A DNA stretch of 64,000 bases from Sphingorhabdus rigui (GTDB lineage: Bacteria > Pseudomonadota > Alphaproteobacteria > Sphingomonadales > Sphingomonadaceae), in assembly GCF_014196595.1 (NCBI RefSeq), contig NZ_JACIEA010000003.1, positions 62,001-126,000 of the forward strand, read 5' to 3'. The translations under genes and the position numbers were made by a program. Under the pieces are notes generated by a model. The model saw only the letters and a program-made list of their open reading frames with translations. It was not told the origin of the DNA and did no database searches. Positions 9,475 to 33,504 of the stretch are shown in pieces; positions within the stretch are counted from its first letter, which is position 1; each line of letters begins with the position of its first letter.

Positions 9475-9477
9475 AGC

Positions 9478-16024: not shown

Positions 16025-17715
16025 ACGGCAGGGATCAACATTGTGAAACGCGTGCCGACTGCCACTGGTTCTTCTATTAAATCTCCGTCAAGCCCACGCA
16101 TGATGTCTTGTGAAATTACGAGACCTAGGCCCAGCCCTTCAGACTTAGTCGTAACAAAGGGCTGGAAGAGGCTGGCGCGTTGATCCGCAGTCAAACCGCA
16201 ACCATTATCGGTGACTGATAGTTTTCGAAACTTGCCCGTTTCTATAATGTCTACGGAAACCGTTCCCTCTTGCCCGGTTGCATCGAAGGCATTCTGCAAA
16301 AGGTTGACGAGCACCTGCTCGAGCGCAACATGCTCACCCCGAACTATCAGGTCGAGATTGGTCTCCGGTGGCAGGATAAGGTCGATATTTAATTGTGCCA
16401 TCCGGTCCCGCAACAACAAAAGCGCACCATCGATCACCTGACGCAAGGGAACCTCGCGTGGTTCACGAAGGCCCCGTCGGCTAAATCGCCGCAGTTCGTC
16501 GGTTATGGTGCCGATCCGGTCGGCCAGAGCGGTTATTCTAGCAAAGTTGGCGGTGGCCTCGGTATGGGCGCCGCGTTCGCCCAGCCGTTCGCCGGTCTCC
16601 GCAAGTATCCGAATAGCGGCCACCGGCTGGCGAATTTCATGCCCGACGCCGGCTGTAATCTGTCCAAGCGTCGCAAGCCGGTTCGCCTGTTGAAGCTGTT
16701 CGCGCAGACGCCCCGTCCGTTCGGTGACAAGCGCTTCTGCGCGGGCTTCACGCCTACGAACGCCGAAAACTGCTAGCGCGGCGATAGCAGCGGTGAGCAG
16801 CAGTAACAGAAGAAACAGCAAACGGCCGTTCGCCTTCGCTGCCGCGAGCGAGGTTGACGGATCAGACCGCAAATGCAGGTTCCAATTGAGCGATGGAACT
16901 GGTTGAAGGCTTTCAATCAAAGCAGGGGTAAGCGTCGACTCGCGATTCTTTCCGGGATCGAAGGGCGGCAGCTTCGCCATGCCAAATTGCTGAAGATCCT
17001 GCTGCGCATCGCGTGTTCCTGGTGCGACCGACGCAGTGGTACTGAAACGCCAAGCCGGATTGCTAGTGACCAGGATCACGCCATCAGCATCTGTTACATA
17101 TACCCCGGACGTGGCCTTGGCCCAGCTGGCTTCGAGCGGGTTGAACTCTACCTTGATTGCTACCACCCCTACCGGGCCAGAAGCGGCATCGACGCGACGG
17201 GCGATATAGAGGCCTGGTCGGCGACTTACCGTGCCGAGTGCAAACTCAGTTGCTACGCCTGACGCCTTCGCATCCACAAAGTAGCGCCGGAAGCTGTAGG
17301 CAGAACCGACAAAACTGTCTGGCAGGTTCCAATTGCTTGCTGCCAGCGTCATGCCGTCCCGGTTCATCAGGTAGATGACGGCAGCTCCGGTCTGTTGAGC
17401 AATTTGTTGAAGGCGCTGGTTGAGATCGGACTGCTGTGTGCGGTCTCCCGCCATAAGCGATTGAACCTGGGGATCGCGTGCAAGCACCAACGGAACCAGA
17501 CTGAATTTGTCCAACTCACTTTCCAACCCGGCCGCAAGGATAGCGGCCTCGTTGTCGGCCGCATTTTCTGCTTCATCAATTGCCGAAGCCCGCATGGTTC
17601 GGTCGATCGCCAGCAAACCCAACGCAGCAAGCAGGAGGATTCCTATCGCCGTTATGCCCGCGAGATATCGGCGGCCAGGCTGCGATAGTGAAGGCGTTTT
17701 GCCGGTCAGATTCAT
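16021..17715 (-). CDS. dctB: DctB-like sensor histidine kinase
   Basis: This membrane sensor of about 564 residues has an N-terminal transmembrane helix (YLAGITAIGILLLAALGLLAI) and a periplasmic double-PAS-like region with YLMNRDGMTLAASNW and FRRYFVDA. A second helix (LFLLLLLLLTAAIAALAVFG) precedes a HisKA segment (TAGVGHEIRQPVAAI, phospho-acceptor His) and an ATPase domain (VLVNLLQNAFDA, DNGCG, GLGLGLVIS). DctB senses C4-dicarboxylates. Start is uncertain: 17715 is preferred, 17754 is possible; neither has a good ribosome site. It forms an operon with dctD and diverges from dctA. Confidence 0.88.
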   Translation of the reverse strand: MNLTGKTPSLSQPGRRYLAGITAIGILLLAALGLLAIDRTMRASAIDEAENAADNEAAILAAGLESELDKFSLVPLVLARDPQVQSLMAGDRTQQSDLNQRLQQIAQQTGAAVIYLMNRDGMTLAASNWNLPDSFVGSAYSFRRYFVDAKASGVATEFALGTVSRRPGLYIARRVDAASGPVGVVAIKVEFNPLEASWAKATSGVYVTDADGVILVTSNPAWRFSTTASVAPGTRDAQQDLQQFGMAKLPPFDPGKNRESTLTPALIESLQPVPSLNWNLHLRSDPSTSLAAAKANGRLLFLLLLLLTAAIAALAVFGVRRREARAEALVTERTGRLREQLQQANRLATLGQITAGVGHEIRQPVAAIRILAETGERLGERGAHTEATANFARITALADRIGTITDELRRFSRRGLREPREVPLRQVIDGALLLLRDRMAQLNIDLILPPETNLDLIVRGEHVALEQVLVNLLQNAFDATGQEGTVSVDIIETGKFRKLSVTDNGCGLTADQRASLFQPFVTTKSEGLGLGLVISQDIMRGLDGDLIEEPVAVGTRFTMLIPAV

Positions 17716-17754
17716 ATATTGTCTGTCGCCTGACACAAAGGCGGCACGCCCCAT

Positions 17755-18073
17755 GACGCGACGATCGATAACTGCATTGGCAAGTGCGGGACAAATGGCA
17801 ACGGGTGCAGTCCTTCATAATTACGAAACGTCATTCAACTCGGGCCGCGCCCTCGGAATGTCTGACTATAAATCTTATTTGCAGGCTATGTCTGGAAATC
17901 CGCATTTATAGCAAGACTTTTGTCTGGAATATCAGAATTCTTTTATCCGAAATCATGTTATCCAACTGTTTTTATTATGTTAAATTAATTTTACATTATT
18001 GGTTGCATGTGAATAAGTGCGCCTTATCCTGACGCGGAACCGAGCGCCCACGTCCGGAAAAGGGGAAGAATTA
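17755..18073. promoter_or_regulatory. dctB-dctA divergent region with phased GTCTG repeats
   Basis: The sequence GTCTG occurs at 17860, 17890 and 17922, about three helical turns apart. The second and third are followed by GGAAATCC and GGAATATCAG, giving partial dyads (TCTG-N6-CAGA at the third). Such phased sites would suit an enhancer-type regulator like DctD. I found no -24/-12 sigma-54 element with proper GG-N10-GC spacing. The part next to dctA is AT-rich. Confidence 0.35.
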
Positions 18074-19459
18074 ATGCAGGCGATAACGCCGACCATCGGT
18101 GGAAATGGCAAGCCCGTTAAGCTACCATTCTATCGTCAACTATATGTCCAGGTGTTAGCTGCCATCTTCCTAGGTGCGGTTTTGGGGCATCTTTATCCTG
18201 ACGTCGGGTCGGCATTAAAGCCGCTGGGTGACGGCTTCATCAAGCTGGTAAAGATGATCATCGCGCCGGTCATTTTCCTCACCGTCGCCACGGGCATCGC
18301 AGGAATGCGTAACCTGTCAACTGTCGGGCGCGTAGCGGGAAAGGCATTTGCGTATTTCCTGTTTTTCTCCACTCTTGCGCTGATCATCGGTCTGGTTGTT
18401 GGCAATATTGTGCAGCCCGGTGCTGGCCTTAATATTGATCCGGCTACCCTTGATGCCAGCAAAGTTGCGGACTATGCCAAGACATCGGAAGGCCAGACGA
18501 TAGCCGGCTTTCTGTTGAACATCATTCCCGAAACTTTGTTCAGCGCGATGACCGATGGCAACATATTGCAGGTCCTTCTCGTCGCCATTTTGACAGGGTT
18601 GGCGCTTTCTGCCACCCGCCCGCACAGCGACCTCGTACTTGACGTCCTCGCCTCGTTTAACGCCGTGGTCTTCAAGCTCGTTCACATGCTGATGAAACTG
18701 GCGCCGATCGGGGCATTCGGCGCGATTGCGTTTACCATTGGTGAATTTGGCATAAGGTCGTTAGCCAACCTTGCCGCATTAGTGGCTACTTTCTATCTCA
18801 CGTCGCTGTTCTTTGTGATCGTCGTGCTCGGCGCTGTCGCCTATTTCGCAGGCTTCTCTATCTTTAAGATGATCCGTTATCTGCGCGAGGAACTGCTTCT
18901 GGTTCTGGGCACATCGTCGTCGGAAGCAGCACTGCCCAGTCTAATGGAAAAGCTGGAAATCGCTGGTGCGCGCAAATCTGTGGTCGGTCTCGTGGTTCCA
19001 ACCGGCTATTCGTTCAATCTCGACGGCACCAATATCTACATGACCTTGGCGGCGCTGTTCATTGCGCAGGCCGTCGGCATTGATTTGTCGATGTCCGAAC
19101 AATTTGCGTTGGTACTGGTCGCCATGATCAGTTCGAAAGGTGCGGCGGGCGTTACGGGTGCCGGGTTTGTCATTCTTGCGACAACGTTATCGGTCGTGCC
19201 ATCTGTGCCTGTAGCAGGCATGGCGCTGATACTGGGTATCGACCGGTTCATGAGCGAATGCCGCGCGCTGACTAACTTCATCGGAAACGCCGTGGCAACG
19301 ATTGTAGTCGCGCGTTGGGAAGGCGCGCTGGATACTGAGCGTTTGGCGGCTGCGATGGCTGGCACACCCATTCCGTTGCCCGAAGATGATCTAGAGCGAC
19401 ATGAACGCAGCGGGCCGCGCAGCCAAGCATTGTCAGAGGCATTGGGCGAACCTGCATGA
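18074..19459 (+). CDS. dctA: C4-dicarboxylate:cation symporter DctA
   Basis: This is an inner-membrane sodium/proton:dicarboxylate symporter (SLC1/DAACS family), 461 residues. Family landmarks are present: the serine-rich reentrant loop [13 protein letters not shown], the substrate-site stretch [32 protein letters not shown] and the terminal [20 protein letters not shown]. DctA takes up succinate, fumarate, malate and also aspartate. ATG 18074 is chosen for GGGGAAG just upstream. It is the first gene of a coupled operon with the hydrolase at 19456 (ATGA overlap), so the hydrolases downstream probably release its substrate. Confidence 0.95.
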
Positions 19460-20421
19460 TCGCGCGCCGCACCTTGCTGCAAAACCTTGCCGCGCTGTCG
19501 GCGGTTGGCGCCGTGCAATTGGGCAGCGTCATGCCTGCGTTTGCGCAAGAGCGCGAAGAAATTCCGTTGTGGCCCGGTAAACCGCCTGGCCATGGCGGGG
19601 TGACGGGTCCGGAAAAGTTGGGCGAATCCGGCGCAGGATTGGGCGCTCTGTCAAACATCTCGGTCCCGCGTATGCGCGTCTATCGCCCGACAAAACCAAA
19701 CGGTGCGGCCGTTATCGTGTGTGGCGGTGGTGGGTATTTCCGTATTCAGGTGAAGAAAGAAAGCACACCAATTGCCGGTTGGCTGCAAGCGCGCGGTTTT
19801 ACCGTGTTTGAACTGCTTTATCGCCTGCCCAACGACGGCTGGGATGCCGCCGTACCGTTTATGGACGCACAACGGGCCATGCGGATCGTGCGGACCCGAG
19901 CATCGGAGTTCGCCATCGATGCAAAGCAAATCGGCATTATGGGCTTTTCCGCAGGCGGACATCTCGCGGGGTTCACTGCACTTCAACCGCAACGACAATT
20001 ATATGCCGGGTCGGACAAATATGAGAAAGTCAGCGCCAGGCCCGATTTCTCTGTGCTGCTGTTCCCGGTCGTTTCCCTCCGGAAGCCCTATGATACAACA
20101 CGCACCCGGCGTGAAATCATTGGCGAAGCACCCAGCGCAGAAGCAGAAAATGCCTGGTCGCTCGACACATATGCCAGTGCGGATGCGCCGCCGACGATCA
20201 TCTTTGCATCGGCCGATGATAAAACTGCGCCGCCACAGCACGGTATCATGCTGTTTGAAAAGCTTAACGCTGCCGGTGCATCAGCAGAGTTACATATGTT
20301 TCGCGACGGCGGTCATGGCTGGGGTCTTGGCCGTCCGGAACAGGTCCTGAGCCAATGGCCAGAAATGTTCGTGAAGTGGTTTGATTCAGGAAAAATTATA
20401 CAAAACAAGCAGGGAGAATGA
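19456..20421 (+). CDS. Exported alpha/beta hydrolase (esterase-like)
   Basis: This 321-residue secreted or periplasmic hydrolase has an N-terminal signal with paired arginines ([15 protein letters not shown] ... AFAQ), so Tat export is possible. The core shows an oxyanion-type CGGGGYFRI, nucleophile elbow GFSAGGHLA, an acidic residue in [10 protein letters not shown] and the catalytic His in GGHGWGLG, as in Aes/BD-FAE-type carbohydrate or short-chain esterases. Start and dctA stop overlap (ATGA). Its exact bond is unknown; in this operon it may unmask or trim the polymer that the downstream peptidases digest. Confidence 0.8.
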
Positions 20422-20423
20422 AG

Positions 20424-23400
20424 ATGGGGACCAAGATATTACGCAAGGTGGCGCTGTTCAGCACAACCGCGTTGATGACAGCAAATATGGCGTATGCACA
20501 AGATGCTGCGACCGTCGCGACCGAGGAAGCCGAAGCATCAATCGTTGTGACCGGCTCACGGATCCAGGGCGCGCAGATCAATGACGTCCTTCCGGTTACT
20601 GTTCTTGACGAACAACAGATCGAAAATACGGGCGCTTCGTCAGGCGACGAACTTTTCCGTGCACTTCCGCAGAACGGAACTATCGCGTTTAACGAACAAA
20701 ATGCCACCACCCAGAACAACGTTCGCGGTGATGTCGGTTCGGTGAACTTGCGCGACTTGGGCACAGGAAACACATTGCTGTTGATCAATGGCCGCCGGAT
20801 GAACCTACACCCCGGTTTCCAGACCGAATTGCTGGTGCCCGTAGTCAGCCCCGACACCAACGAGATTGCACCCGGCAGCGTTCGCCGGATTGAAGTCCTA
20901 CGCGACGGTGCTTCTGCCATCTATGGAGCCGATGCTGTCGCAGGCGTGATCAACACCGTACTCAAGGGCAATTTGAAAGGCGGTTTCCTTGAAGCTGACT
21001 GGCGTGCGTCGGATGGAACCAGCTTGTACAGCTATTCCATCAGCGGCGGCTTAGGGTTCGATTTCGGCGGCGGACGCGGCAATTTGACCGTCTATGGCGG
21101 CCGTTTCCATGAAAACGGCCTTGGTGCGCAAAAACGGGATTATTCGCGCGACGATGATCGCACGCGGTTGCTCGTGGGAACCGATTTCGAAGGTGAGGCC
21201 TCGTTCAACAACCGCAACACTTTCGGGCCGTTCGGTCAATTTGATATTCAGACGTCACCCAACAGCCGAACACCGATAAACGACGACGACTTCTATCTGC
21301 AACCAAGCACGTTCACCGGCTGCCGCATGGATTTCCGTAACGGGATCTGTGCCCGTAACGGAGAGACGCCTACCACGGCCGTCCGTTATAACACCATATT
21401 CGGTAACTCGCTGATTAGCCGCAAGGACCGCTATAATGCGATGGCGCTGCTGAACTACGAACTGACGGACAGTGTCGAAGCGTATTTCGAAGGCAGCTAT
21501 TACCGATCGGAAAACCAGCGCTTTAATGATGCATCGGCTATCCTCAGCGCTGTTCCAGTCGGCATTGCACGAACCGCCTATTGGAACCCGTTTGGCCCGA
21601 CCACGCTGGTTGGCGGCGGAGCCAACCCCAACCGTTTGCCTGGCACCACCATCCCTACGACCGGCGCTGATGTAATTATGGAGCGCTATCGCTTTGTCGA
21701 TGGCGGCAACCGCAGCGTTTTGGTGGACAAGGACGCTTACCGTCTTGTCGCGGGTCTGCGCGGCAATTTCGGCGCGTGGGACTTTGACACCGGGTTCGTT
21801 TATTCCGAATCGAAGCTGACGGATCTTGAAACCAACCGCGTGTCGCTCACCGCGATGCAGCAATCGATCAACCGTACGACGCCCGATGCTTACAATCCGT
21901 TCAATGGCGGATGTCTCAATGACCCCGGCCAAGGAGATTGCACGCCGAATCCGACCGCTGTATTCGACACTTTCCACATCAACGTGTCCCGCAAGGGCGG
22001 CACCAGCCTTGCACTGGCAGACTTCAAGGTCAGCCGCGACGACCTGTTCGTCCTCCCCGGCGGCAACGTTGGCGTTGCAACAGGTATTGAATGGCGTCGT
22101 GAGACCTTTTTCGATGATCGTGACCCTCGCCTCGACGGCACGATTACATTTACCGACAGTGTGACCGGCGTATTCAACGGCAGTGATGTTGCGGGAACCA
22201 GCCCGTCACCCGACACAGATGGGTCGCGCACAGTATATTCGGCCTTCGCCGAATTGTTCGTGCCTGTCGTCAGCGCAGACATGAACATTCCACTGGTCGA
22301 AGAATTCAATGTGCAGATGGCCGGACGGGTCGAGCGTTTCGAAGACATCGACGCGACCGCGATGGTTCCGCGCGTGGCCGCATCATGGACCACCATTCCC
22401 GGCATCACATTCCGGGGCGCATGGTCGCAAGGCTTCCGCGCGCCAAATCTCGCTCAGGTCAATGATGACGGCACCACCCGGTCCAATACACGCGATGATT
22501 TCGTGTTTTGCCAGGCACAGGTCCGAAAAGGCCTTCTATCTGGCCTCGACGCCTGCCCCGGTGCCGGTGTCATCAGCTTCCGGTCGGGTGCTCGCAGCCT
22601 AAAGCCTGAAGATAGTGAAAGCATAAACCTTGGTATCGTGCTTGAGCCGAAGTTTATTCCGGGCCTGACACTCACCGCCGACTATTGGCGGGTAAAGCAA
22701 GCCGAGTTGGTTGGTACGTTCGGCGACGACAACGCAATTGCACTTGATTTGCTCCGCCGCCTCGGGGGTAGCACCAATCCAAATGTTATCCGTGCGGCCC
22801 CAACCGTGGATGACATAGCGTTGTTCACCGGTACTGGCCTTGCCCCGGCGGGCAAGATCGTCCAGGTGCTCGATCCTTATCTTAACCTTGATAGCCGCGT
22901 GTCCAAGGGCTGGGACTTCGGGATGGCCTACAACGTGCCCGATTTCGGGGCAGGTAAGTTCCGCCTTCGCTTGAATGCGGCACGGCTAAACAGCTTCGTC
23001 CAAAGCGCCAGCGTTGATGGTGAGGAACTGCTTGCTGGAATTGCGGCTGGCACGTTGCCGGCCGATGTCACGGTTGGCGGGCTGGGTGAATTGCTCGAAA
23101 TCGACGGCCGTCCCAAATGGCGTGTCAGCGGATCGATCAATTGGGAAACTGGTCCAGTCGAGATCGGCCTGTTTGGCCAATATACCGGCAAGGTATGGGA
23201 CACCAGCGTTGTCCGCGACATATTGCTGGTTTCGGATGATCCAAATGCCAACTTCTACCGGGTCAACGACCAGTTCCTTACCAACCTTTCGGTTTCTTAC
23301 ACGATCAACAACGACACGGCTCTTAACGGAACCCGGCTGCGCTTTGCGATCAACAACCTGTTCGACAAGGATCCGCCGCTCGCGGATGAAACCTATGGTT

Positions 23401-23465
23401 TCTACAGCGAGTTGTACACTGCGCGCGGACGTGTCTTCCACGTCGAACTCCGGAAGAAGTTTTGA
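20424..23465 (+). CDS. TonB-dependent outer-membrane receptor
   Basis: This 1013-residue receptor has a signal peptide (MGTKILRKVALFSTTALMTA...AYA), a TonB-box-like EASIVVTGSRI, a plug domain (LRDLGTGNTLLLINGRRM, VRRIEVLRDGASAIYGADAVAG) and a large barrel ending in aromatic-terminated LRKKF. The ATG at 20424 has AGGGAG seven bases upstream; an ATG at 20418 is too close to it. These receptors import oligomers or chelates across the outer membrane. Between dctA and three exported hydrolases, it most likely brings in the oligomer those enzymes cleave. Confidence 0.92.
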   Translation: MGTKILRKVALFSTTALMTANMAYAQDAATVATEEAEASIVVTGSRIQGAQINDVLPVTVLDEQQIENTGASSGDELFRALPQNGTIAFNEQNATTQNNVRGDVGSVNLRDLGTGNTLLLINGRRMNLHPGFQTELLVPVVSPDTNEIAPGSVRRIEVLRDGASAIYGADAVAGVINTVLKGNLKGGFLEADWRASDGTSLYSYSISGGLGFDFGGGRGNLTVYGGRFHENGLGAQKRDYSRDDDRTRLLVGTDFEGEASFNNRNTFGPFGQFDIQTSPNSRTPINDDDFYLQPSTFTGCRMDFRNGICARNGETPTTAVRYNTIFGNSLISRKDRYNAMALLNYELTDSVEAYFEGSYYRSENQRFNDASAILSAVPVGIARTAYWNPFGPTTLVGGGANPNRLPGTTIPTTGADVIMERYRFVDGGNRSVLVDKDAYRLVAGLRGNFGAWDFDTGFVYSESKLTDLETNRVSLTAMQQSINRTTPDAYNPFNGGCLNDPGQGDCTPNPTAVFDTFHINVSRKGGTSLALADFKVSRDDLFVLPGGNVGVATGIEWRRETFFDDRDPRLDGTITFTDSVTGVFNGSDVAGTSPSPDTDGSRTVYSAFAELFVPVVSADMNIPLVEEFNVQMAGRVERFEDIDATAMVPRVAASWTTIPGITFRGAWSQGFRAPNLAQVNDDGTTRSNTRDDFVFCQAQVRKGLLSGLDACPGAGVISFRSGARSLKPEDSESINLGIVLEPKFIPGLTLTADYWRVKQAELVGTFGDDNAIALDLLRRLGGSTNPNVIRAAPTVDDIALFTGTGLAPAGKIVQVLDPYLNLDSRVSKGWDFGMAYNVPDFGAGKFRLRLNAARLNSFVQSASVDGEELLAGIAAGTLPADVTVGGLGELLEIDGRPKWRVSGSINWETGPVEIGLFGQYTGKVWDTSVVRDILLVSDDPNANFYRVNDQFLTNLSVSYTINNDTALNGTRLRFAINNLFDKDPPLADETYGFYSELYTARGRVFHVELRKKF

Positions 23466-23469
23466 TGTA

Positions 23470-24660
23470 ATGCGGCGGGCAGGAACTTGGTTATCGCTCG
23501 CCGCGTGGATTGGGATCGGGTCGGTTGCACATGCGCAGCCACCCGCTACCCCAGCGTCATCTGATTCCAAACCTACCCTGTCTGGCTGCCATACAGCCAA
23601 AGGTAGCGTTAAATTTGATTTTGAGGGTGCGTCCCGCTCTGTTTGTTACGTGGAGGATGAACGGACGCTATCGATTCTGGTTACGCCCGAGCATCTTCCG
23701 CCAATCAACCCGAGCCCGTGGTATGCCTTCCGATACAGCGCGGCGGAAGGTGGCAGTCTTAACGTTAACGTACGTTACCTTGGCGCACGGCATCGTTATG
23801 CGCCCAAGTGGCGCGGACGTGGCGACCCTTCGGCGTTTTCCGTCGTGATTGCCAATGACGCCAGTTCGGTATCAATTACACTCCCACCGGGCGAAGGTGT
23901 CGTTAGTGGCCAGCCGCTTTTGACGAGTGCCCATTACGACAATTTGCTTGCTCAACTTACGAAAAGTGGCGGCGGCAGCCGGATTGTGATTGGCCAATCA
24001 CAGGATAGACGCCCCGTCGAAGCCGTTCATTTGGGCTCTACCGATGCTCCGCGCCTTGTGGTGCTGCTGGGCAGGCAGCACCCACCTGAAGTGACCGGTG
24101 TCTTCGCGATGGATGCGTTTTCGCTTAAGATTGCAGAGCTGATCCGCTCAGGTGCTATCGACGGGAAGCAGTTCCAGTTTCTGATTGTGCCTTTACTCAA
24201 TCCCGACGGCGTCGCCCGTGGGCACTGGCGGGGTAATCTAGGTGGGACAGACCTCAACCGCGACTGGGGGATATTCAAGCAGCCGGAAACGCGCGCGGTC
24301 CACGATTGGCTTGCCTCGCTACCCGCACAAGTACAGCCGGTGTTGATGCTCGATTTCCATTCAACCAACCGCAACCTTTTCTATGTGCAGGGTGACGAGG
24401 CGAATGCGCAAGGCAAGGCTTTCCTCGCTGCGTGGCTCGGGGGCAAAGAGAACGCCTTTGCGGGATATCCGTTCAAGATTGAGCCGCGCGATGCCAATTC
24501 CGGCTCAGGCACAACAAAGAATTGGTTCAGCGCAACATATGGTATTCCGGCCTATACGTACGAGGTCGGAGATGATTCAGACCCTCTCGCAGTTCGCGCT
24601 GCAGCGGAGGCGTTGGCACAAAATTTGGTACCATCTCTGGTTATGCCGCCTAAGGAGTGA
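23470..24660 (+). CDS. Exported M14 zinc carboxypeptidase, cytosolic-carboxypeptidase-like
   Basis: This 396-residue protein has a signal peptide (cleavage near AHA, residue 22), a beta-sandwich N-domain (about 45-130; WYAFRYSAAEGG) and an M14 catalytic domain. Zinc ligands appear as H204/E207 in GRQHPPEVTG and H297 in LDFHSTN; the catalytic Glu is E365 in YTYEVGDD; DLNRDW holds the substrate-binding Arg. The LNPDGVARGHWRGN and N-domain pattern match the CCP/AGBL subfamily, whose eukaryotic members trim C-terminal acidic residues (polyglutamate) from tubulin. It starts five bases after the receptor stop. I infer it removes acidic residues from the imported polymer. Confidence 0.82.
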   Translation: MRRAGTWLSLAAWIGIGSVAHAQPPATPASSDSKPTLSGCHTAKGSVKFDFEGASRSVCYVEDERTLSILVTPEHLPPINPSPWYAFRYSAAEGGSLNVNVRYLGARHRYAPKWRGRGDPSAFSVVIANDASSVSITLPPGEGVVSGQPLLTSAHYDNLLAQLTKSGGGSRIVIGQSQDRRPVEAVHLGSTDAPRLVVLLGRQHPPEVTGVFAMDAFSLKIAELIRSGAIDGKQFQFLIVPLLNPDGVARGHWRGNLGGTDLNRDWGIFKQPETRAVHDWLASLPAQVQPVLMLDFHSTNRNLFYVQGDEANAQGKAFLAAWLGGKENAFAGYPFKIEPRDANSGSGTTKNWFSATYGIPAYTYEVGDDSDPLAVRAAAEALAQNLVPSLVMPPKE

Positions 24661-24711
24661 TGCACGGGCATATGTGCGGGGGCGATGCTCAGTTTGATCC
24701 GGAGATTTTTA

Positions 24712-26856
24712 ATGAGCCTTACCATGACCTATCGCGTCGCGTGCTTCCTCGCTTGTCTCTCGGCGTCTTTTGTAGCAGCGCCAGCGATGGCAAAAGCGTG
24801 CGATCCGCTTGCCGCCGGATCATCGCAGATTGTTTTTTCCGGCTGGTCAGGGCCTAAACTCCCCGTCTTCGTGCACAAGCCACAAACGGCGGGAGCCGAT
24901 AGCCGAATCGTTTTCGTCATGCACGACGTTCAACGTGACGGCGAGCGTTATCGCGACGAATGGCGCGATCTGGCCGAACAGCATAATCTTATCGTCGTCG
25001 TGCCGACGTTTGGCAGAGAGGATTTTCCCACCACCGGCTCTTACAATCTTGGCAACATAATCGATAAGAAAGGCCGAAAAACGCCCAAGGCGGAATGGTC
25101 ATTCTCCGCTATCGAGCCTTTGTTCGACGACATCGTTTGCCGCGTGTCTGGTAACCAGCGGGGCTATGCGCTCTATGGTCATTCTGCCGGTGGGCAGTTC
25201 GTTCATCGCTATGTCGCCTTTGCCGATGCACCCCGAATGGACAGTGCCGTTGCTGCGAATTCGGGATGGTACACGATGCCGGACGATCGAGCTTTCCCTT
25301 ATGGCTGGGGCGGCGATGTGGCAGGACTGGTTTCGCCTGCGAAGGCATTTCAGCGGCCGTTGACCATCCTGCTTGGGACCGAAGATATTGACCGCAAGGA
25401 TCCCAATCTGCGCGTCAACGGGCAAGCTGACAAACAGGGCCAGACGCGTTTCGACAGGGGGCACAGTTTTCTGGCCGCTGCACACAAGCGGGCAGGCGTC
25501 GCCATGCCGATCAGCTGGAAGATCGCTTACGCACCGGGGGTCGGCCACGACAATGGTCAAATGGCACCGTTTGCTATTCCCCACCTTTTAGGCGCAGCTG
25601 CCAGGGCGCCATCGCCGCAAGTCGCCGTTAAGGCCCAAGCGGATATTGAAAAATTGCGATCGCGCAAGGCCGTCACAGCCGCAATGGCGACGATAATTGA
25701 GCTTGAAAGCGATTGGGCCATCCAGCGGCTCGTTGAACTAACAGAAATACCTGCCCCCCCGTTCGAAGAGGAAAAGCGCGGGCTGGCTTTTGCCCGCATG
25801 TTGCGTGAAATCGGTGGCCTCGATGTTCGAATTGACGAGATTGGGAATGTGATCGCGCGGCGTAAAGGCACTGGCACAGGTTCGGCTGTCATGCTGGCCG
25901 CCCATCTCGATACCGTTTTTGCCAAAGACGTAGATGTGACGGTAAAACGCGACGGTGACCGTTTCACCGCTCCGGGCATTGGCGACAATTCACGCGGCCT
26001 GGTATCGCTTTTGTTGGTTGCACGCGCGCTGGAAAGGCATGCCATTTACACCGAACGGGACATCCTGTTTGTTGGGACGGTGGGTGAGGAAGGTACGGGC
26101 GACCTGCGCGGCATGCGACATATCTTTTCTAAGCCAGATCACGCGATTGGCAGCGTCATCGCAATCGACGGAGGCGAAATGGGCCGACTGATCGACACGG
26201 CTGTAGGTTCAAACCGCTACCGGGTGAAATTTACCGGTCCAGGCGGCCACAGCTATGGCGCCTTTGGAACCGTCAATCCGCATCACGCCACGGCGCGAGC
26301 GATTACCCGTTTTCTCGACCGCGCCGAACCCGTTACAGCCTCCGGTTCAAAGGCAACCTACTCGGTTGCCTTGTTGGAAGGTGGCCTTGGCATCAACGTC
26401 ATACCAACGGACAGTGCATTCGAAATCGACCTGCGATCGTCGGACGCTAACCGTCTGGCTGCTCTGGATGCGATACTGCGATCGGCAATTGGTGCAACGC
26501 TTGCCAGCGAGAATGCTGGTAAGAAACAAGGCGGGCTGTTGGCAGTCGAGATCAAGGACCTTGGAAAGCGCCCGGCAGGCACGAATGCCGCCAACGCCCC
26601 GTTGGTCTCCAATGCTGAAGCGGCCCTTTCTTCTTTGGGCGTCGAACCAAGCCGGAACGCCTCATCCACCGATGCAAATCTGCCCATGTCGCTCGGCATT
26701 CCCAGCATAACCATAAGCCGCGGGGGCATCAGTGAGCGATCGCATTCTAATGATGAATACTGGATTGCAAAGGACCCACATTTTGGGCCCCAAGCAGCAT
26801 TACTCATTAGCCTCCTTGAGGCTGCGGTCAGCAACGATATTGGCGATGCAAGATAG
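24712..26856 (+). CDS. Fusion: PahZ1-like alpha/beta hydrolase + PahZ2-like M20 peptidase
   Basis: This is a 714-residue exported protein. After a signal peptide (residues 1-27, AMA/KA), residues 30-295 form an alpha/beta hydrolase of the PHB-depolymerase-like/PahZ1 kind: S158 in YGHSAGGQ, likely D225 in GTEDID, H279 in GVGHDN, plus GWYT...DRAFPYGWG. After a charged linker, residues 335-705 are an M20 metallopeptidase: H398 and D400 (AAHLDTVF), D425 (GIGDNSRG), E459/E460 (VGEEGTGDLRG), D486, H513 (GPGGHSYG), H678. In Sphingomonas KT-1 separate PahZ1 (endo, beta-amide) and PahZ2 (exo) degrade poly(aspartic acid). GGAG before 24712 decides the start. Confidence 0.85.
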   Translation: MSLTMTYRVACFLACLSASFVAAPAMAKACDPLAAGSSQIVFSGWSGPKLPVFVHKPQTAGADSRIVFVMHDVQRDGERYRDEWRDLAEQHNLIVVVPTFGREDFPTTGSYNLGNIIDKKGRKTPKAEWSFSAIEPLFDDIVCRVSGNQRGYALYGHSAGGQFVHRYVAFADAPRMDSAVAANSGWYTMPDDRAFPYGWGGDVAGLVSPAKAFQRPLTILLGTEDIDRKDPNLRVNGQADKQGQTRFDRGHSFLAAAHKRAGVAMPISWKIAYAPGVGHDNGQMAPFAIPHLLGAAARAPSPQVAVKAQADIEKLRSRKAVTAAMATIIELESDWAIQRLVELTEIPAPPFEEEKRGLAFARMLREIGGLDVRIDEIGNVIARRKGTGTGSAVMLAAHLDTVFAKDVDVTVKRDGDRFTAPGIGDNSRGLVSLLLVARALERHAIYTERDILFVGTVGEEGTGDLRGMRHIFSKPDHAIGSVIAIDGGEMGRLIDTAVGSNRYRVKFTGPGGHSYGAFGTVNPHHATARAITRFLDRAEPVTASGSKATYSVALLEGGLGINVIPTDSAFEIDLRSSDANRLAALDAILRSAIGATLASENAGKKQGGLLAVEIKDLGKRPAGTNAANAPLVSNAEAALSSLGVEPSRNASSTDANLPMSLGIPSITISRGGISERSHSNDEYWIAKDPHFGPQAALLISLLEAAVSNDIGDAR

Positions 26857-27292
26857 ATAAGAAACGCCTAAAAAGAACCTCCAAGGCGTCCAAGACCAGG
26901 CCAGCCCCGATTATGGCGACCCGGTGCCGACACCCTGTCCGTGGTGAGCGGGGCCGGTAGATAGAGCGCGAAGACATTTGTCTTTTATGGGGCACTTCTT
27001 TTCCAGGCTGAAGCACTGTCGCACGTTGGCCACCCGATAAGACAAATTCGCTGAGAGCGTCCTCGGCATGGCCCAGCTGGCGTGAATGCGCCTGTGGCTC
27101 TGCGCTTATGAGTCCACGGTATATCTAAGTAAATCCCGCTAAGTATTATTACGAATTTAAAACAAAACACAAATGTTATTAATTACTTCAAATTTATAAA
27201 AAAATCACATTAAATTAAAAAATATAATTATTTATTTTTAAAATATTCAATAATCTTAAAAAAATAAATTATAATAATTTGAGGATATTTTT
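26857..27292. promoter_or_regulatory. Intergenic with extremely AT-rich promoter region
   Basis: Bases 26857-27120 have normal GC and no gene. From about 27120 to 27280 the DNA is almost pure A/T, with runs such as AAAAAATCACATTAAATTAAA, then TTGAGGATATTTTT gives a ribosome site for the gene at 27293. No other 150-base stretch of this window is so AT-rich. It probably carries a promoter open to silencing by a xenogeneic silencer; no clear -35/-10 pair can be singled out. Confidence 0.45.
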
Positions 27293-28657
27293 ATGGACGG
27301 AAATAATGATAGTTTCACATCAATTTCTTCTTTAAGAAATAATCTGTCTAAAGAAAATAATATTTCTCCTGAACAAAAAAAATTTAAAATAAATAAAGAA
27401 GAATGCTCGTACGCGAAATCGCATATTCAAATTGGAGATATCACGGAAATCTCGCAGGGATCAGGTGGGGGCCGCCTCAAAACCAGCAATATATCGCGGC
27501 AACTGATTGTGGAAAAGATCGACCAACAGATTTTTCGCGATGCGAAGCAATCCTTTGTAACCCGACGTGTCGAACAAGATTCCATGTCTACCCTTATTAA
27601 GGGCCCTATTCGGCCTCGCACTGGTGACCTTGCGCTGGCGCAGGTAGAGCGCATCCACTTCCATCGGCGATTGGAGCTCACGAACGGCCGAAAGGCAACG
27701 TTAGAGCCTGGCGACAAGATTATCGTTGCATATGGAGATCGTTACGCCACCGACCAATTCGAGGCTGAAATTCCTTTGGATCTTGGCACCACGAACCTTG
27801 TTGCCACTGGTGGCATCGCTTCGCGCATGCTGTCGCGTAACGGGGGGATCCGACCAGCGAGCATCATTTGCCCCCTTGGTCTGATCGGAGATGGCGACGG
27901 CGTGCCGTTAAACCTGTCGCGTTTCGCAGCTTCTCCTCCGCCGCTGCCTGACCGACGCCCGATAGTCATGGCAGTGCTTGGTACTTCGATGAACTCCGGG
28001 AAAACCACAATCAACTATTCCATGGTTAACGGACTGCGAAGGGCAGGCCACCGCCCCGGCGTGGCGAAAATCACGGGAACAGGTTCTGGTGGGGATTATT
28101 GGTTGATGGTCGACGCAGGCGCGCATGCCGTCGTCGACTTCACCGATGCAGGCTATGCTGCAACATACAAGCTTTCCATCCCACAAATAGAATACATCCT
28201 CCAGAGCTTGATCGCTCAGCTTATAGGAAAAGGCGTTAATATAATATTGATAGAGATAGCCGACGGGATCTTTCAGGAACAAAATGTCGAGCTGATCCGC
28301 TCTCCGCTTTTCGGCCAACTGGTAGATAAGGTCATCTTTGCCGCTGGCGAAGCGATGGGCGCGCTAATGGGTATACATACCCTGCAAGAAGCGGCCGCTC
28401 CCCTTATCGGAATTTCAGGCAAGATGACCGCCTCCGAGTTGGCAATCAGGGAATGCCGAGCGGCCAGCACAACCCCAGTATATACCCGTGCCGAACTTTC
28501 TGACCCGTCCAGCGTGTGCAAGATTATCGGGATACCTCTGGAAGGTGATCTTCCGCTGGTGGATGTCGCCCCGTTAACCTCGTGTTGCCCGACCATTTCA
28601 TCGGACACTCCCGCCCGGTCGGTCGCAAGTTCCATTGTTAAGGGCAAAGCGACATGA
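27293..28657 (+). CDS. P-loop NTPase of unknown function (MobB/CobQ/DUF1611-like)
   Basis: This is a 454-residue soluble protein. Residues 1-45 are Asn/Lys/Ser-rich, encoded by AT-rich codons, and look unstructured. Residues about 100-215 form a beta-rich domain (RPRTGDLALAQVERI, GDKIIVAYGDRYATDQFEAEI). From 222 a P-loop domain follows: Walker A GTSMNSGKTT at 230-239, then AKITGTGSGGDYW, VDFTDAGYAATYKL, IILIEIADGIFQ (Walker B-like) and VIFAAGEAMGA. The layout resembles MobB/BioD/CobQ-type enzymes that activate a carboxylate or carry a nucleotide. GAGG before the ATG supports the start. ATGA overlap links it to the ABC transporter. Confidence 0.65.
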   Translation: MDGNNDSFTSISSLRNNLSKENNISPEQKKFKINKEECSYAKSHIQIGDITEISQGSGGGRLKTSNISRQLIVEKIDQQIFRDAKQSFVTRRVEQDSMSTLIKGPIRPRTGDLALAQVERIHFHRRLELTNGRKATLEPGDKIIVAYGDRYATDQFEAEIPLDLGTTNLVATGGIASRMLSRNGGIRPASIICPLGLIGDGDGVPLNLSRFAASPPPLPDRRPIVMAVLGTSMNSGKTTINYSMVNGLRRAGHRPGVAKITGTGSGGDYWLMVDAGAHAVVDFTDAGYAATYKLSIPQIEYILQSLIAQLIGKGVNIILIEIADGIFQEQNVELIRSPLFGQLVDKVIFAAGEAMGALMGIHTLQEAAAPLIGISGKMTASELAIRECRAASTTPVYTRAELSDPSSVCKIIGIPLEGDLPLVDVAPLTSCCPTISSDTPARSVASSIVKGKAT

Positions 28658-30366
28658 GCGAGCTACAGACCTTAAGAATGAGGGATTGTCTGACACGCTC
28701 AGAAATTATTACCGTGCTTGGAACTGCGCTGGCAAGCGCGGCGTCAGTGATCTTGCTATTCCTATCAATGAAGACCGTATTAAAGACATTAGAATACGGC
28801 ACCACTAGCTTGACCCGATCCGAAAACCTAACGGCATTGGCAATTCTGTTAGCGGCGGCGACAGCCCATTCCGTGCTAAAGGGTCTCGAATTCGCGGTTC
28901 CAGAAGCGATAGGATTCCAGGCCGTCAGCAGGCTTCGTATGTCACTGCACAAGCACATGTCAGGCATGTCCGCGCGCCAAATTCAACACCGATCTCGTGG
29001 AAGCTTGATACTCCGCTTAACTGGCGATCTCACCATGCTTCGAACCTGGCTCAGCCGAGGACTTGGTAGAGGCATAATCGCCGGCATTTCGATGATGGCC
29101 TGCATCTTAATCGTGGGAACAATTAGCCCGAAGCTCGCTGGCGTCATCACCATCTGTGTTTTTTCCGGCATTATTGTTTCGTTCGCAATTGGTCGGCGTC
29201 TTCAGAAGGTCACGGCACGCGTGCGGCGCAAGCGCTCATTGCTAACGAGCAACATCGACGAACAGGTCCATGGATTGGCAACAATCCAGACTTCCGGGCG
29301 GTTCAACGGAGAACTCTCCCGATTGGCGCGGCAAAGCGAAAGTTTAACTGCGTCGCTTGTCCGAGAAGCGCGGCTTCGCGGTTGGCTAAGGAGCACGGCA
29401 TCTGCCTCCGGCTGGTTAGCCATGTGCGGTATTATTGGACTAGGTGGGTTCGACATTGCGAATGGCGCACTCGACCTTAGTTCGGTGATGGTCGCCATTG
29501 TTGCGACGCGTCTTTTACAAGGTTATGTCAGCACACTCGGTTTGGTGTACGATTATTGGTGCCGCGCCGAAGTATCGAGACGGAAGCTGGAAGATTTCCT
29601 GAACAGTTCGTCGCAGTTGCTCGCTGATCCCGCTCTGGAACCTCTTCGTCACAACCGGGCGCCCATTCGGTTTGAGTCTTTAAGCGTGGACGGGGCCCTT
29701 CAAGACATCACCGCTCTTGTTCCGGCTGGATGGCATGTGGCAATCGTTGGGCCGAGTGGTTCTGGAAAAACGACCCTTCTCCACGCAATCGCCAGAATGG
29801 TGAAACCTCAGAAAGGCTCTGTGTTCATCGGTGATCAGGATTTGGCAAGCTGTCAGATTGCTAGCGTGTTTCGCAAGATAGGTCTGGTCAGCCCGGATCT
29901 GCCGCTTCTAAGAGGTACTATCAGACGCAATCTGTGCTACCGAAAGCCAGCGGCCGGCGATGTCGAAATGTCAGCCCTGCTTACCCGCTGTGGCCTTAAG
30001 CCGCTTGTGGATTCCTTTTCCGACGGACTTGATCACTGGATCACAGAAGAGGGTAGGAACATTTCCGTCGGTGAACGCCAGCGGCTGGCTCTGGCGCGGG
30101 CCATGATGGGCAGTCCACCAATCTTGCTCCTCGATGACCCTATCGCTCCGCTTGACAGAAAAAACCGCCAGATTTTTCGCAGGATCATTGCACAGTACGC
30201 CGGGACCATTCTCCACGTCACCGAGGATCCAGATGATATCGTCATTGCAGACCTTGTCTGGACGATGGAGAACGGCCGCCTCGTATCTACAGAAACTTCG
30301 CAAAGTTATCTTAACCGGATGCGTCAACAGCCTGACGCTATCCATCAGTTCTCTCTGGTTGGCTGA
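28654..30366 (+). CDS. ABC exporter half-transporter with degenerate ATPase motifs
   Basis: This 570-residue protein has an N-terminal six-helix ABC-type-1 membrane domain (about 1-310) fused to a nucleotide-binding domain (about 330-560). Walker A is intact (GPSGSGKTT, near 366) and the signature reads ISVGERQRL. Three other sites deviate: the Q-loop reads VSPD (412-415) instead of VPQD, Walker B has Asp-Asp (D494-D495) where the catalytic Glu should be, and the switch His is Glu (VTEDP, E524). It probably dimerises and exports the product of neighbouring genes, but ATP hydrolysis may be slow or may need a partner. ATGA-coupled upstream; next gene starts two bases after its stop. Confidence 0.88.
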   Translation: MSELQTLRMRDCLTRSEIITVLGTALASAASVILLFLSMKTVLKTLEYGTTSLTRSENLTALAILLAAATAHSVLKGLEFAVPEAIGFQAVSRLRMSLHKHMSGMSARQIQHRSRGSLILRLTGDLTMLRTWLSRGLGRGIIAGISMMACILIVGTISPKLAGVITICVFSGIIVSFAIGRRLQKVTARVRRKRSLLTSNIDEQVHGLATIQTSGRFNGELSRLARQSESLTASLVREARLRGWLRSTASASGWLAMCGIIGLGGFDIANGALDLSSVMVAIVATRLLQGYVSTLGLVYDYWCRAEVSRRKLEDFLNSSSQLLADPALEPLRHNRAPIRFESLSVDGALQDITALVPAGWHVAIVGPSGSGKTTLLHAIARMVKPQKGSVFIGDQDLASCQIASVFRKIGLVSPDLPLLRGTIRRNLCYRKPAAGDVEMSALLTRCGLKPLVDSFSDGLDHWITEEGRNISVGERQRLALARAMMGSPPILLLDDPIAPLDRKNRQIFRRIIAQYAGTILHVTEDPDDIVIADLVWTMENGRLVSTETSQSYLNRMRQQPDAIHQFSLVG

Positions 30367-30367
30367 A

Positions 30368-31186
30368 ATGGCTGATTTCCAAGCATCAACACGCCTTAAA
30401 GGCGACCATGTACTGGGCTATCACCTGTTTGCCCCTTCCAAGCTGAAGCACCCTCGACTTCTGGTCCTTGTTCACGGAAGGCAGACGACACCTGAAGCGA
30501 TCATCCGACTGTTTGCGCCTATTGCAAGGACGTGCGGCATTGCACTTTTAGCGCCAGATTTTTCAGATTTTCGGTTCAAAGGGTACCAGCAACTGCGCGG
30601 TAGCAGTGGCAAGAACGCTGCGGCAACCGCGCTAGATACATTAGCGCGCTTACAATCAAACTACCTTGGCCTCGACGAACAACGGTTTGATCTTTTTGGC
30701 TTTTCAGCAGGCGCGCAGTTCGCACATCGTTTTGCCCTCGCTTTGCCCAACCGCACGGCACGGCTCATAGTCGCAGCGGCCGGATGGTATACTGATCTCT
30801 CTTGTGATCGCTCTTTTCCGCACGGCCTTGGTCGGTATCGCGCTCATCTGAAACAGTTTCTGCAAATACCCACGCTACTTTTAGTGGGAGAGCGGGATTG
30901 CTGCAAAACAGACCAGTCCCTGAGGCGATCACCGGATCTTGATGCCCGTCAGGGCGAAGATCGTGTTTCGCGTGCGCGCAATTGGTTAGAACAGATCGAA
31001 CAGCAAAGTGCGGCATATGGGCTGCCCTGCAAAGCAAGGCTCGCGATCCTGCCCAACACCGGACACAGCTTGCACGAAGCGATAGCATTAGGTGGCCTAG
31101 AAATAGCGGCCTTAAAACACCTCCTGGCGGACAGGGATGCCGGTGCGGGCGAATGGACACAGCGCCAACGACATTCATTGAACTGA
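30368..31186 (+). CDS. Cytoplasmic PahZ1-like alpha/beta hydrolase
   Basis: This 272-residue hydrolase has no signal peptide. The nucleophile elbow is FGFSAGAQFAHR (S113), the likely acid is D177 in VGERDCC, and the base H233 is in NTGHSL. The segment AGWYTDLSCDRSFPHGLG matches SGWYTMPDDRAFPYGWG in the exported fusion at 24712, and the order of motifs is the same, so the two are paralogous. A cytoplasmic counterpart next to an exporter could edit, cyclise or transfer rather than degrade. It starts two bases after the ABC stop and continues the operon. Confidence 0.78.
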   Translation: MADFQASTRLKGDHVLGYHLFAPSKLKHPRLLVLVHGRQTTPEAIIRLFAPIARTCGIALLAPDFSDFRFKGYQQLRGSSGKNAAATALDTLARLQSNYLGLDEQRFDLFGFSAGAQFAHRFALALPNRTARLIVAAAGWYTDLSCDRSFPHGLGRYRAHLKQFLQIPTLLLVGERDCCKTDQSLRRSPDLDARQGEDRVSRARNWLEQIEQQSAAYGLPCKARLAILPNTGHSLHEAIALGGLEIAALKHLLADRDAGAGEWTQRQRHSLN

Positions 31187-31199
31187 TGAGAGTTATGTG

Positions 31200-32108
31200 A
31201 TGACAAATCCATCCCTTCGAAACGCCGTCGGACGTGTTGTTGTATTTACGTCCCTTTTTGCGCCGATGACTGCCCACGCTGAAGCACTAGAGAGTGACGC
31301 CCAGCTTACGCTGTCAGCCAGTGGGGTTATCGCATCCGGCAAATGGATCGACGGCACTGAGGACCCCGACAAATCGGGGGGCGTTTTTGGCGTGAAGGCT
31401 TCATGGGACCTGAAAGGCGACGCGACCTATTTAGGAATCGATCTTTCCAGCAGCTATTACGCCTATTCAGATGAAGACCGCGACGATCGCTGGAGCAACA
31501 GGATTGCAGGCATTTACGAACGCCAAGTGGCTCCGACGCTCAAGATTGGAGCGCGTGCAGACTTCGCATCTAGGATGGCAGCGCTGGAGAGCAGCTCAGC
31601 TGACCAGGCACAGATTCAGGGCATGCTGACTTGGGGAAAACGCAAGGACAGAGTGAGATTGAGCGCTGGATGGCGCTGGCGCGGCTATCGTGACGGCAGC
31701 GATGGGTCGGGCGATGGCGCAATTGCGGCCATTTCCTGGCGTCGTCGCTTGGACAAGCGTCAATTTCTGGAGATCTCGGGAAGCTACGACACTATAGATT
31801 CTACGATCGATCGGCGCGACTATCGTCGATACACCATCAATGCCGAATACCGCCTGCGCCCAATTGACAAGTTGGAGCTCGGCATAGGCCTTGCCTTGAA
31901 GAATTGGCGCTATCGCAATCGACGCTTAGGCGATGGTTACCAGCACGACCACAGCTGGACGCCAAAGGTAAATGTCTCGTACGAAGTGGCCAAGGGTTGG
32001 TTCGCTGATCTCGAAGGAGAGATGATTTCGCGAAATTCCAGCGATTCCACATATGATAACGAAATAAAGCGCGGTAAAATCGGAATACGCAAGAAATTAT
32101 ATTTTTGA
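31200..32108 (+). CDS. Outer-membrane beta-barrel protein, unknown
   Basis: This 302-residue protein has a signal peptide (through AHA, about residue 26), alternating amphipathic strands rich in Tyr, Trp and Arg (YLGIDLSSSYYAYSDEDRD, VRLSAGWRWRGYRDGS) and a C-terminal aromatic residue (KKLYF) typical for BAM substrates. About 12-14 strands can be counted roughly. ATG 31200 is chosen over a GTG at 31197. It probably forms the outer-membrane exit or a surface anchor for the cluster; no named family is recognised. Confidence 0.7.
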   Translation: MTNPSLRNAVGRVVVFTSLFAPMTAHAEALESDAQLTLSASGVIASGKWIDGTEDPDKSGGVFGVKASWDLKGDATYLGIDLSSSYYAYSDEDRDDRWSNRIAGIYERQVAPTLKIGARADFASRMAALESSSADQAQIQGMLTWGKRKDRVRLSAGWRWRGYRDGSDGSGDGAIAAISWRRRLDKRQFLEISGSYDTIDSTIDRRDYRRYTINAEYRLRPIDKLELGIGLALKNWRYRNRRLGDGYQHDHSWTPKVNVSYEVAKGWFADLEGEMISRNSSDSTYDNEIKRGKIGIRKKLYF

Positions 32109-32148
32109 TAAATTTTTAAATTCTCAAAACATATTAAAGTAAATTAAC

Positions 32149-33369
32149 ATGTCAGAAGAATTAAATGTATTCGATCAACCCTTAATCGGCCCAAAATGGA
32201 AATACAAACGTCATTTTTTGCGACGAATGTTTATATTTTTGATCGCTTTTTCTGTGATCATTACTTGCGTGACCGGACAGAAGCCTCTCAAAGGCATCGC
32301 GCCAATAGTGGTGATAGGTGGCGACACGCATTTCGGGGAAAACTATGCTTCTCGAAAGTCGTTTGGAGGGCCGTGGGGAAACGGACAAAATGTTGACTAC
32401 AGTCGCGGCTTTTTTTGGCTGAAGCCCTTGCTGGATCGGGCGATGTGGAAGGTCGTCAACCTTGAAACGCCTTTAAGCAGTGCTCTTAATGAAACACGTC
32501 TGGATAAGGAGTATGTTCATTGGGCGCATGCAGAAAATGCGGGCAGGGCATTGGCCGCAGGGGGGATAAATGCCGTCGGCCTCGCTAACAACCACGTCCT
32601 TGATCAGGGGCCACAGGGCTTAAAAAAAACGTTTTCGACGCTAAACCGCTACGGTATCGGCGCGTTTGGCGCCGGCATGGACCTGTCTCAGGCTCGGGCG
32701 CCGCTGGTGCGGAAAATTAGCCTTGCCGAGAGGCGGGCTAGAACTGTCGCAATATTCGGCATGTTTGAAGTCCGTAGAAATTATCGAGAAAAACTAGATT
32801 TCTACGCAGATACTAACAAACTGGGCGTGGCACCCATTGATGTCGCAGCCTTTGCCAAGCAAGTCTCGGTCTTACGCAAAACAGATCCGAACGCATTCGT
32901 AATAGCTTATCCTCATTGGGGGAAAAACTATATGTGGGCCACCGATACACAGGTGGAGATTGGCCATGCATTAATCGATGCCGGTGCCGATATCGTAATC
33001 GGCCATCACGCCCATACATTGCAGGAAATTGAACGATACAAATCTAAGTGGATTCTTTATGGGATAGGTAATTTCATATTCAACGCGCCGGGCCGTTACG
33101 CCAAGTATCCCAGTAGCCTCCCATTCAGCCTGGTGGTGGAATTGGTTTTCGGCGGCGATCCAACTGCCATCCCTCGCGTAAAGCTTCATCCATTTCTATC
33201 AGATAATCTGCAAACACGTTACCAGCCACGCCCAGCCTCTGCCGACGAAGCGCGCATTATTATGGGGGCAATCAGAGCAAGGCCGCACGCAAAAGGCTTT
33301 GCCGCGGAATTAGTTGACGATAGCTCGGGTACGAAGGCTATATTACTGACGTCCGATGAGGCGAAGTGA
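32149..33369 (+). CDS. CapA/PgsA-type poly-gamma-glutamate-associated protein
   Basis: This 406-residue protein has an N-terminal membrane anchor (FIFLIAFSVIITCVTG, about 28-43) and an extracytoplasmic CapA domain of calcineurin-like fold. The domain's motifs are visible in order: IGGDTHFGEN, NLETPL, VGLANNHVLDQG, AYPHWGKNY, IGHHAHTLQ and GIGNFIF. CapA/PgsA is needed for poly-gamma-glutamate synthesis, export or anchoring in Bacillus, though CapA-like proteins also occur elsewhere. No CapB/PgsB ligase or CapC/PgsC is nearby. The first 150 bases and the gap before them are AT-rich, unlike the rest of the gene. Confidence 0.85.
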   Translation: MSEELNVFDQPLIGPKWKYKRHFLRRMFIFLIAFSVIITCVTGQKPLKGIAPIVVIGGDTHFGENYASRKSFGGPWGNGQNVDYSRGFFWLKPLLDRAMWKVVNLETPLSSALNETRLDKEYVHWAHAENAGRALAAGGINAVGLANNHVLDQGPQGLKKTFSTLNRYGIGAFGAGMDLSQARAPLVRKISLAERRARTVAIFGMFEVRRNYREKLDFYADTNKLGVAPIDVAAFAKQVSVLRKTDPNAFVIAYPHWGKNYMWATDTQVEIGHALIDAGADIVIGHHAHTLQEIERYKSKWILYGIGNFIFNAPGRYAKYPSSLPFSLVVELVFGGDPTAIPRVKLHPFLSDNLQTRYQPRPASADEARIIMGAIRARPHAKGFAAELVDDSSGTKAILLTSDEAK

Positions 33370-33485: not shown

Positions 33486-33504
33486 GCGGCGTTTCAGGCG
33501 CCGC
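33486..33504 (-). terminator. Weak terminator-like hairpin at desaturase end
   Basis: GCGGCG and CGCCGC form a 6-bp stem with a 7-base loop that overlaps the desaturase stop codon. Read on the minus strand it is followed by ATCTATTTCTTTG, a moderately U-rich tail. It may end transcription of the desaturase. Confidence 0.3.

Follow-up and report, generated by a model that had tools for sequence, protein, structure and literature searches.

A five-gene unit next to a poly(aspartate) degradation locus in Sphingorhabdus rigui, with a P-loop protein proposed as an amide ligase for an exported acidic product

The window analysed here is a stretch of 64,000 nucleotides of Sphingorhabdus rigui (contig NZ_JACIEA010000003.1, positions 62,001 to 126,000 of the forward strand), in which five genes at 27293-33369 encode a P-loop protein, an ABC exporter, an alpha/beta hydrolase, a predicted outer-membrane barrel and CapA (Table 1). 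The sequence-only reading had described these genes as coupled or closely spaced, and this held on inspection: all five open reading frames are real, run in the same direction and are tightly packed, with intergenic gaps of -4, +1, +13 and +40 nt, the negative value being the overlap between the first gene and the second. The hydrolase gene starts near 30368, 1 nt past the exporter stop, and not at the mechanical ORF start at 30134. The A+T content just upstream of the block (27150-27300) is 82-94%, and scans for promoters and terminators gave counts near chance, with promoter-like matches in the upstream region at about the shuffled expectation. Upstream, window 14675-26856 is a complete-looking poly(aspartate) utilisation locus, with a histidine kinase and NtrC-type regulator, DctA, an esterase, a TonB receptor, an M14/AspA-like peptidase and a PahZ1-PahZ2 fusion.

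Table 1. Features of the five-gene block and the adjoining locus, in window positions.
Feature	Position	Strand	Basis or remark
Two-component pair	14675..17754	-	dCache histidine kinase 16021-17754; NtrC-type regulator 14675-16024
DctA-type C4-dicarboxylate transporter	18074..19459	+	degradation locus
TonB-dependent receptor	20418..23465	+	degradation locus
Secreted M14/AspA-like metallopeptidase	23470..24660	+	degradation locus
Secreted PahZ1-PahZ2 fusion, equivalent to the secreted PahZ1 of other CapA-type loci	24685..26856	+	PDB matches, secretion signal
Upstream region, likely regulatory	27160..27292	.	very AT-rich, 82-94%
P-loop protein, proposed ATP-dependent amide ligase	27293..28657	+	454 aa; fold, motifs, gene context
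ABC exporter, membrane domain and degenerate ATPase	28654..30366	+	family models, motif inspection
Alpha/beta hydrolase, PahZ1/LpqC relative, cytosolic clade	30368..31186	+	GFSAG nucleophile elbow; no evident signal peptide
Predicted outer-membrane barrel	31197..32108	+	signal-like N-terminus, C-terminal ...KKLYF
CapA (PGA_cap), N-terminal membrane anchor/signal	32149..33369	+	PF09587

The five neighbouring genes are one inherited unit. In a genome of the same genus (G281), the counterpart of window 18074-26856 is followed directly by that of window 33494-34609 (reverse strand), with all five genes missing; nucleotide similarity to the window ends inside the PahZ gene and restarts at 33498, with one 33-nt match in between (window 26968-27000). 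A second genome of the genus (G084) has the PahZ fusion at 90% identity and no match to the P-loop protein. As both genomes hold the degradation locus without the five genes, these have been gained or lost together and are separable from that locus. We also observed that the PahZ1-PahZ2 gene of G281 is broken (locus L132, about 9230-10960), and that the junction lacking the five-gene block there holds a fragment resembling a tRNA 3' end.

The adjoining fusion protein carries a secretion signal and matches the solved PahZ1 and PahZ2 enzymes, its best PDB matches being 6ve6 (1.4e-59) and 7ljh (2.8e-90). PahZ1KP-2 selectively cuts the beta-amide bonds between the aspartate units of poly(Asp) (PMC4456602). 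Since the neighbouring TonB receptor-M14-PahZ1/PahZ2-DctA locus is conserved within the genus, the five genes could be an accessory to the import and breakdown of poly(aspartate) with no part in synthesis. We consider this very unlikely, as the two genomes above hold the degradation locus without the five genes, most P-loop loci elsewhere are without such a receptor or M20 fusion, and the transporter is of an exporter type. Across the 299 genomes of the window's order, PahZ was found in 58, the P-loop gene, patchily, in 13 and both in 5, a weak co-occurrence (5/13 versus 53/286) that we do not count as support. PahZ genes are thus present in many genomes without a P-loop gene, so the degradation locus can act on a substrate from outside.

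The P-loop protein is composed of an N-terminal beta domain (about residues 70-215) and a dethiobiotin-synthetase-like P-loop domain (about residues 220-415). Its AlphaFold2 model has a pLDDT of 85 with the first 60 residues disordered, and as these roughly 60 residues are also AT-rich and missing from most relatives, the true start of the ORF is uncertain. The N-terminal domain modelled alone reached a pLDDT of 96, and a fold search of the PDB with it gave no match better than E 0.7. The C-terminal domain has the SIMIBI P-loop fold of dethiobiotin synthetase (3of5, 1.9e-7; CTP synthetase 1vco, 3.6e-6), and a phmmer search of the PDB with the window's P-loop sequence alone found nothing. Residues K237, K259, D268, D274 and E321 do not vary among the 68 relatives compared, nor among 18 representatives of the wider superfamily. 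In BioD and CTP synthetase, the P-loop lysine, a lysine after the second strand and acidic metal ligands make up the site of ATP-dependent activation; by analogy, such a site would also be present in the P-loop protein.

The P-loop protein belongs to no curated family, with all Pfam and NCBIfam models below cut-off. The MobB models gave 20 bits (PF03205, cut-off 26.6) and 23.1 bits (TIGR00176, cut-off 76.2), and the DUF1611/DgcN models gave 12.8 bits (PF07755, cut-off 25) and no match (NF041892). These weak scores, together with the label 'DUF1611 domain-containing' that RefSeq gives to some relatives, could indicate a DUF1611/DgcN-type N-acetyltransferase or a MobB-type cofactor protein, a reading that we regard as highly improbable because the scores lie below the curated cut-offs, profile comparison with DgcN gave no significant match, none of the DUF1611 structures 2obn, 2g0t and 7xrj is among the 50 best whole-protein fold matches listed, and the N-terminal domain is without a PDB match. 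Both identities were rejected on these scores and, for DgcN, on the profile comparison, and the worry of the sequence-only reading that the protein might belong to an unrelated pathway such as molybdopterin synthesis did not materialise.

The transporter had been called a degenerate ABC exporter, aptly: it keeps Walker A (GPSGSGKTT) and the signature motif (ISVGERQR), and it lacks both the catalytic Glu that follows Walker B, replaced by Asp, and the H-loop His, replaced by Glu, which are canonical in most relatives and expected of an active ABC exporter. The ATPase motifs are canonical in most clades and damaged in Sphingomicrobium, Rhodobacterales, Rhizobiales and Novosphingobium, and in some sphingomonads the ATPase domain is wholly missing, with the hydrolase gene directly next (L028 10405-11403, L031 8408-9364). 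The window's exporter represents an intermediate stage of this decay, throughout which the P-loop protein stays intact. As the ATPase is decayed here and lost in relatives, synthesis or some other force probably powers transport, and an exporter without ATPase may support synthesis-driven transport, as in processive polymer synthases, or act as a channel; that an MFS protein can replace the exporter (see below) cautions against over-reading the loss. Stepwise loss of the exporter ATPase beside an intact synthetase offers an unusual natural experiment on synthesis-driven transport.

The hydrolase had been taken for a paralogue of a PahZ1-like domain next door, and it is indeed a PahZ1/LpqC relative, although the neighbour proved to be more than PahZ1-like, namely the PahZ1-PahZ2 fusion. 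The barrel matched no family model with confidence; at other loci the same position is taken by relatives of it, and members of the same family are found in Sphingomicrobium and Tsuneonella. CapA scored 197 bits against PF09587 (cut-off 27), has the calcineurin-like motifs GGDTHFG, NLETP, NNHVLD, YPHWG and GHHAH, and is the only copy in the 2.47-Mb genome. Searched genome-wide, the models for the CapB/PgsB ligase (TIGR04012) and CapC (PF14102) gave no match, and that for cyanophycin synthetase (TIGR02068) gave a best partial match of 100 bits against a cut-off of 850. The earlier claims of a CapA-type protein in the cluster and of a genome without CapB and CapC were therefore both correct. A lasso-peptide (RiPP) reading, suggested by a weak MslH match of CapA, was set aside; CapA retains its calcineurin-like motifs. 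A study of drought response that involves an Arthrobacter CapA gene (PMC9608346) could not be connected with the cluster. PADLOC models did not match any of four of the five proteins (all but the ABC exporter), and for these four an anti-phage defence system was rejected on that ground.

Gene neighbourhoods were tallied for 98 P-loop loci, a sample biased to the closest matches of the query. An ABC exporter lies beside or near the P-loop gene in 87 of these loci, a cytosolic-type hydrolase is present in 60, an outer-membrane protein in 36 and CapA in 14. Secreted PahZ1-type hydrolases, which split from the cytosolic hydrolases in a tree with a support of 1.0, are encoded at 13 of the 98 loci in addition to the window's own fusion, and those of the other loci are at most 46% identical to the window's PahZ1 domain. 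The secreted enzyme accompanies CapA in 13 of 14 CapA loci, compared with 1 of the 84 other loci (Fisher 3.6e-14, without phylogenetic correction). The P-loop protein, ABC exporter, CapA and secreted PahZ1 occur together in Arthrobacter, Knoellia, Microbacterium, Naasia and Phycicoccus. The locus most like that of the window is in Tsuneonella litorea (L037), where PahZ1, barrel, P-loop protein, ABC exporter and CapA stand together. The sequence-only reading had allowed that the five families might never meet elsewhere, and with these five genera and Tsuneonella this is not so. The loci of the closest P-loop relatives, of the Sphingomicrobium type, consist of P-loop protein, ABC exporter and barrel only. 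At several alphaproteobacterial loci (L027, L028, L031, L093, L108 and others) the operon is adjoined by a trio of an ECF sigma factor, an anti-sigma-like protein and an S8 protease.

A profile search in one genome per species revealed at least 562 relatives of the P-loop protein in at least six phyla, the best 80 of these being from Cyanobacteria, Actinobacteria, Acidimicrobiia, Acidobacteriota, Chloroflexi, Desulfobacterales and alpha-, beta- and gammaproteobacteria. Four genomes (L034, L149, L150, L151) have an argC-argB operon whose first gene encodes a distant relative where argA or argJ, for an enzyme that forms N-acetylglutamate, would be expected; this relative is followed in L149 by more arginine-pathway genes such as that for ornithine carbamoyltransferase, and is a candidate for an unrecognised glutamate N-acylating enzyme. 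A beta-aspartyl-peptidase gene lies directly 3' of a distant relative, with a divergent MFS transporter, at L155 (3043-5021) and L157 (5325-7286), two loci whose P-loop proteins are 69% identical to each other, and one further relative is followed by a RimK-like ligase. Some alphaproteobacterial loci also encode an Asp/Asn beta-hydroxylase (PF05118); the Pfam model confirmed this family at six loci (L018, L113, L114, L156, L176, L181), and comparable genes lie close to the P-loop gene at further ones. On a Priestia plasmid (L022 6772-15472), a distant relative is accompanied by two L-amino-acid-ligase-type ATP-grasps, ornithine carbamoyltransferase, an M20 protein and a gene of the PEP-mutase family, which together may form a phosphonate peptide cluster. 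On a Microvirga plasmid (L016 10004-11767), the P-loop reading frame continues into that of a Mutator-type transposase, and the annotation calls it a transposase.

What the PahZ, beta-hydroxylase, beta-aspartyl-peptidase, RimK-like ligase and argC-argB contexts appear to have in common is an ATP-driven step that acylates an acidic amino acid at its amino group. In the arginine operons this chemistry is directly testable by complementing an E. coli argA mutant. As the superfamily, with its unmatched domain and its scores below the Pfam and NCBIfam cut-offs, is spread over several phyla, the reaction matters beyond this genome.

The main rival to a polymer is a small secreted metabolite of beta-aspartyl type, which we judge a real though doubtful possibility: the P-loop enzyme would make a short N-acylated or beta-aspartyl compound (a dipeptide, osmolyte, chelator or signal) that is exported by the ABC or MFS protein, diffuses through a porin and is inactivated or released by the hydrolases. 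Consistent with this, an MFS protein replaces the ABC exporter in seven loci of proteobacterial MAGs (L071, L077, L082, L084, L091, L095, L102), members of Porin_O_P, Porin_4 and OprB are among the outer-membrane partners and fill the downstream position at many loci, and Asp beta-hydroxylases and two-component or ECF regulators are found at the loci; distant members stand beside single-step amino-acid enzymes (argC/argB) and, in the phosphonate-like cluster, beside L-amino-acid-ligase-type ATP-grasps. CapA and the secreted PahZ1 are each associated with poly-amino acids, and their linkage in nearly all CapA loci argues against a small molecule, as does the decay of the exporter ATPase, unexpected if a free metabolite were actively exported. 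A polymer joined by beta-ester bonds (polymalate or an oligomer of 3-hydroxyacids), with no amide, seems quite improbable to us. The hydrolases resemble PHB depolymerases (PMC4456602), and because PahZ1-fold enzymes are related to these an ester substrate is possible; DctA of the adjoining locus also belongs to a C4-dicarboxylate transporter family. The PahZ2-type M20 domain, the M14/AspA-like peptidase, the beta-aspartyl-peptidase, the beta-hydroxylase and the argC/argB contexts, however, indicate amino acids.

For mechanism and ALTERNATIVES, we tentatively favour, at somewhat less than an even chance, a ligase-exporter module for an acidic beta-amide product that is polymeric in the CapA/PahZ1 subtype of the window. 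Counted towards this reading are the beta-aspartyl partners, namely the PF05118 hydroxylase, the beta-aspartyl-peptidase, the RimK-like ligase and the P-loop-argC-argB operons. In the cytosol, the P-loop protein would bind ATP and activate a carboxylate, probably by forming an acyl phosphate in the manner of dethiobiotin and CTP synthetase. It would then couple this carboxylate to an acidic amino acid at its alpha-amino group, most likely giving a beta-amide-linked oligomer or polymer of aspartate. The ABC-type membrane protein would carry the product through the inner membrane, probably powered by synthesis or another force, with the cytosolic PahZ1-like hydrolase trimming or recycling it; the barrel would move it through the outer membrane, and CapA, outside the inner membrane, would hold or modify the chain. 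The secreted PahZ1-PahZ2 fusion would then depolymerise the chain to aspartate, to be taken up by DctA. The unit, the P-loop activator and the acidic amino-acid product of the sequence-only reading are in keeping with the empty site in the related genome, the BioD/CTP-synthetase-like fold and the beta-aspartyl links; its polymer and its export we infer, as we do the monomer, the bond, the ligase chemistry and the direction of transport.

In its most specific form, which we think unlikely on balance, this module would represent an undescribed class of poly-amino-acid synthase, a two-domain P-loop enzyme that links aspartate units by beta-amide bonds and threads the chain into an ABC-derived channel that can now do without its ATPase. 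Were beta-linked poly-aspartate made in this way, it would provide a reason for the existence of poly(aspartate) hydrolases and a way of producing a useful degradable polymer biologically. On this reading the superfamily would also supply the unrecognised glutamate N-acylating step of the arginine operons that it heads.

Of the known systems, BioD and CTP synthetase share with the P-loop protein the P-loop spacing and the Lys/Asp/Glu constellation and are its best fold matches, whereas the P-loop protein has an extra unmatched N-terminal domain and a different gene context, and the BioD model does not recognise it. DgcN (DUF1611), a D-glutamate N-acetyltransferase, likewise acts on an acidic amino acid and shows weak P-loop similarity, but the P-loop protein is below cut-off with an insignificant profile match, and DgcN's own neighbours are racemase genes. 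Cyanophycin synthetase CphA makes a polymer on a beta-aspartate backbone; it is a Mur-ligase/ATP-grasp enzyme, for which this genome gives sub-cut-off partial matches only. The Cap/Pgs system (CapB-CapC-CapA with a hydrolase) resembles the cluster in combining an ATP-using ligase, a membrane partner, CapA and a chain-cleaving hydrolase in one operon. In the window, however, the candidate ligase is a dethiobiotin-synthetase-like P-loop protein, the membrane partner is an ABC exporter and the hydrolase is PahZ1-like, and as CapB/PgsB and CapC, its two defining parts, were searched for and not found, the cluster is not a member of Cap/Pgs. We found no description of such a system in the open-licence literature on DUF1611 and related subjects, and with an uncurated synthetase family and a partly unmatched fold we consider the five-gene system, with the function proposed here, categorically new. 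PahZ1 and PahZ2 of Sphingomonas sp. KT-1 are fused in the window's upstream gene, and secreted PahZ1 relatives occur in other CapA-type loci. The KT-1 enzymes are known as degraders of synthetic poly(Asp), whereas the fusion adjoins a candidate producer, which, if our reading is true, would yield beta-linked poly(aspartate) in nature, presumably the natural substrate of enzymes that have been studied on the synthetic polymer.
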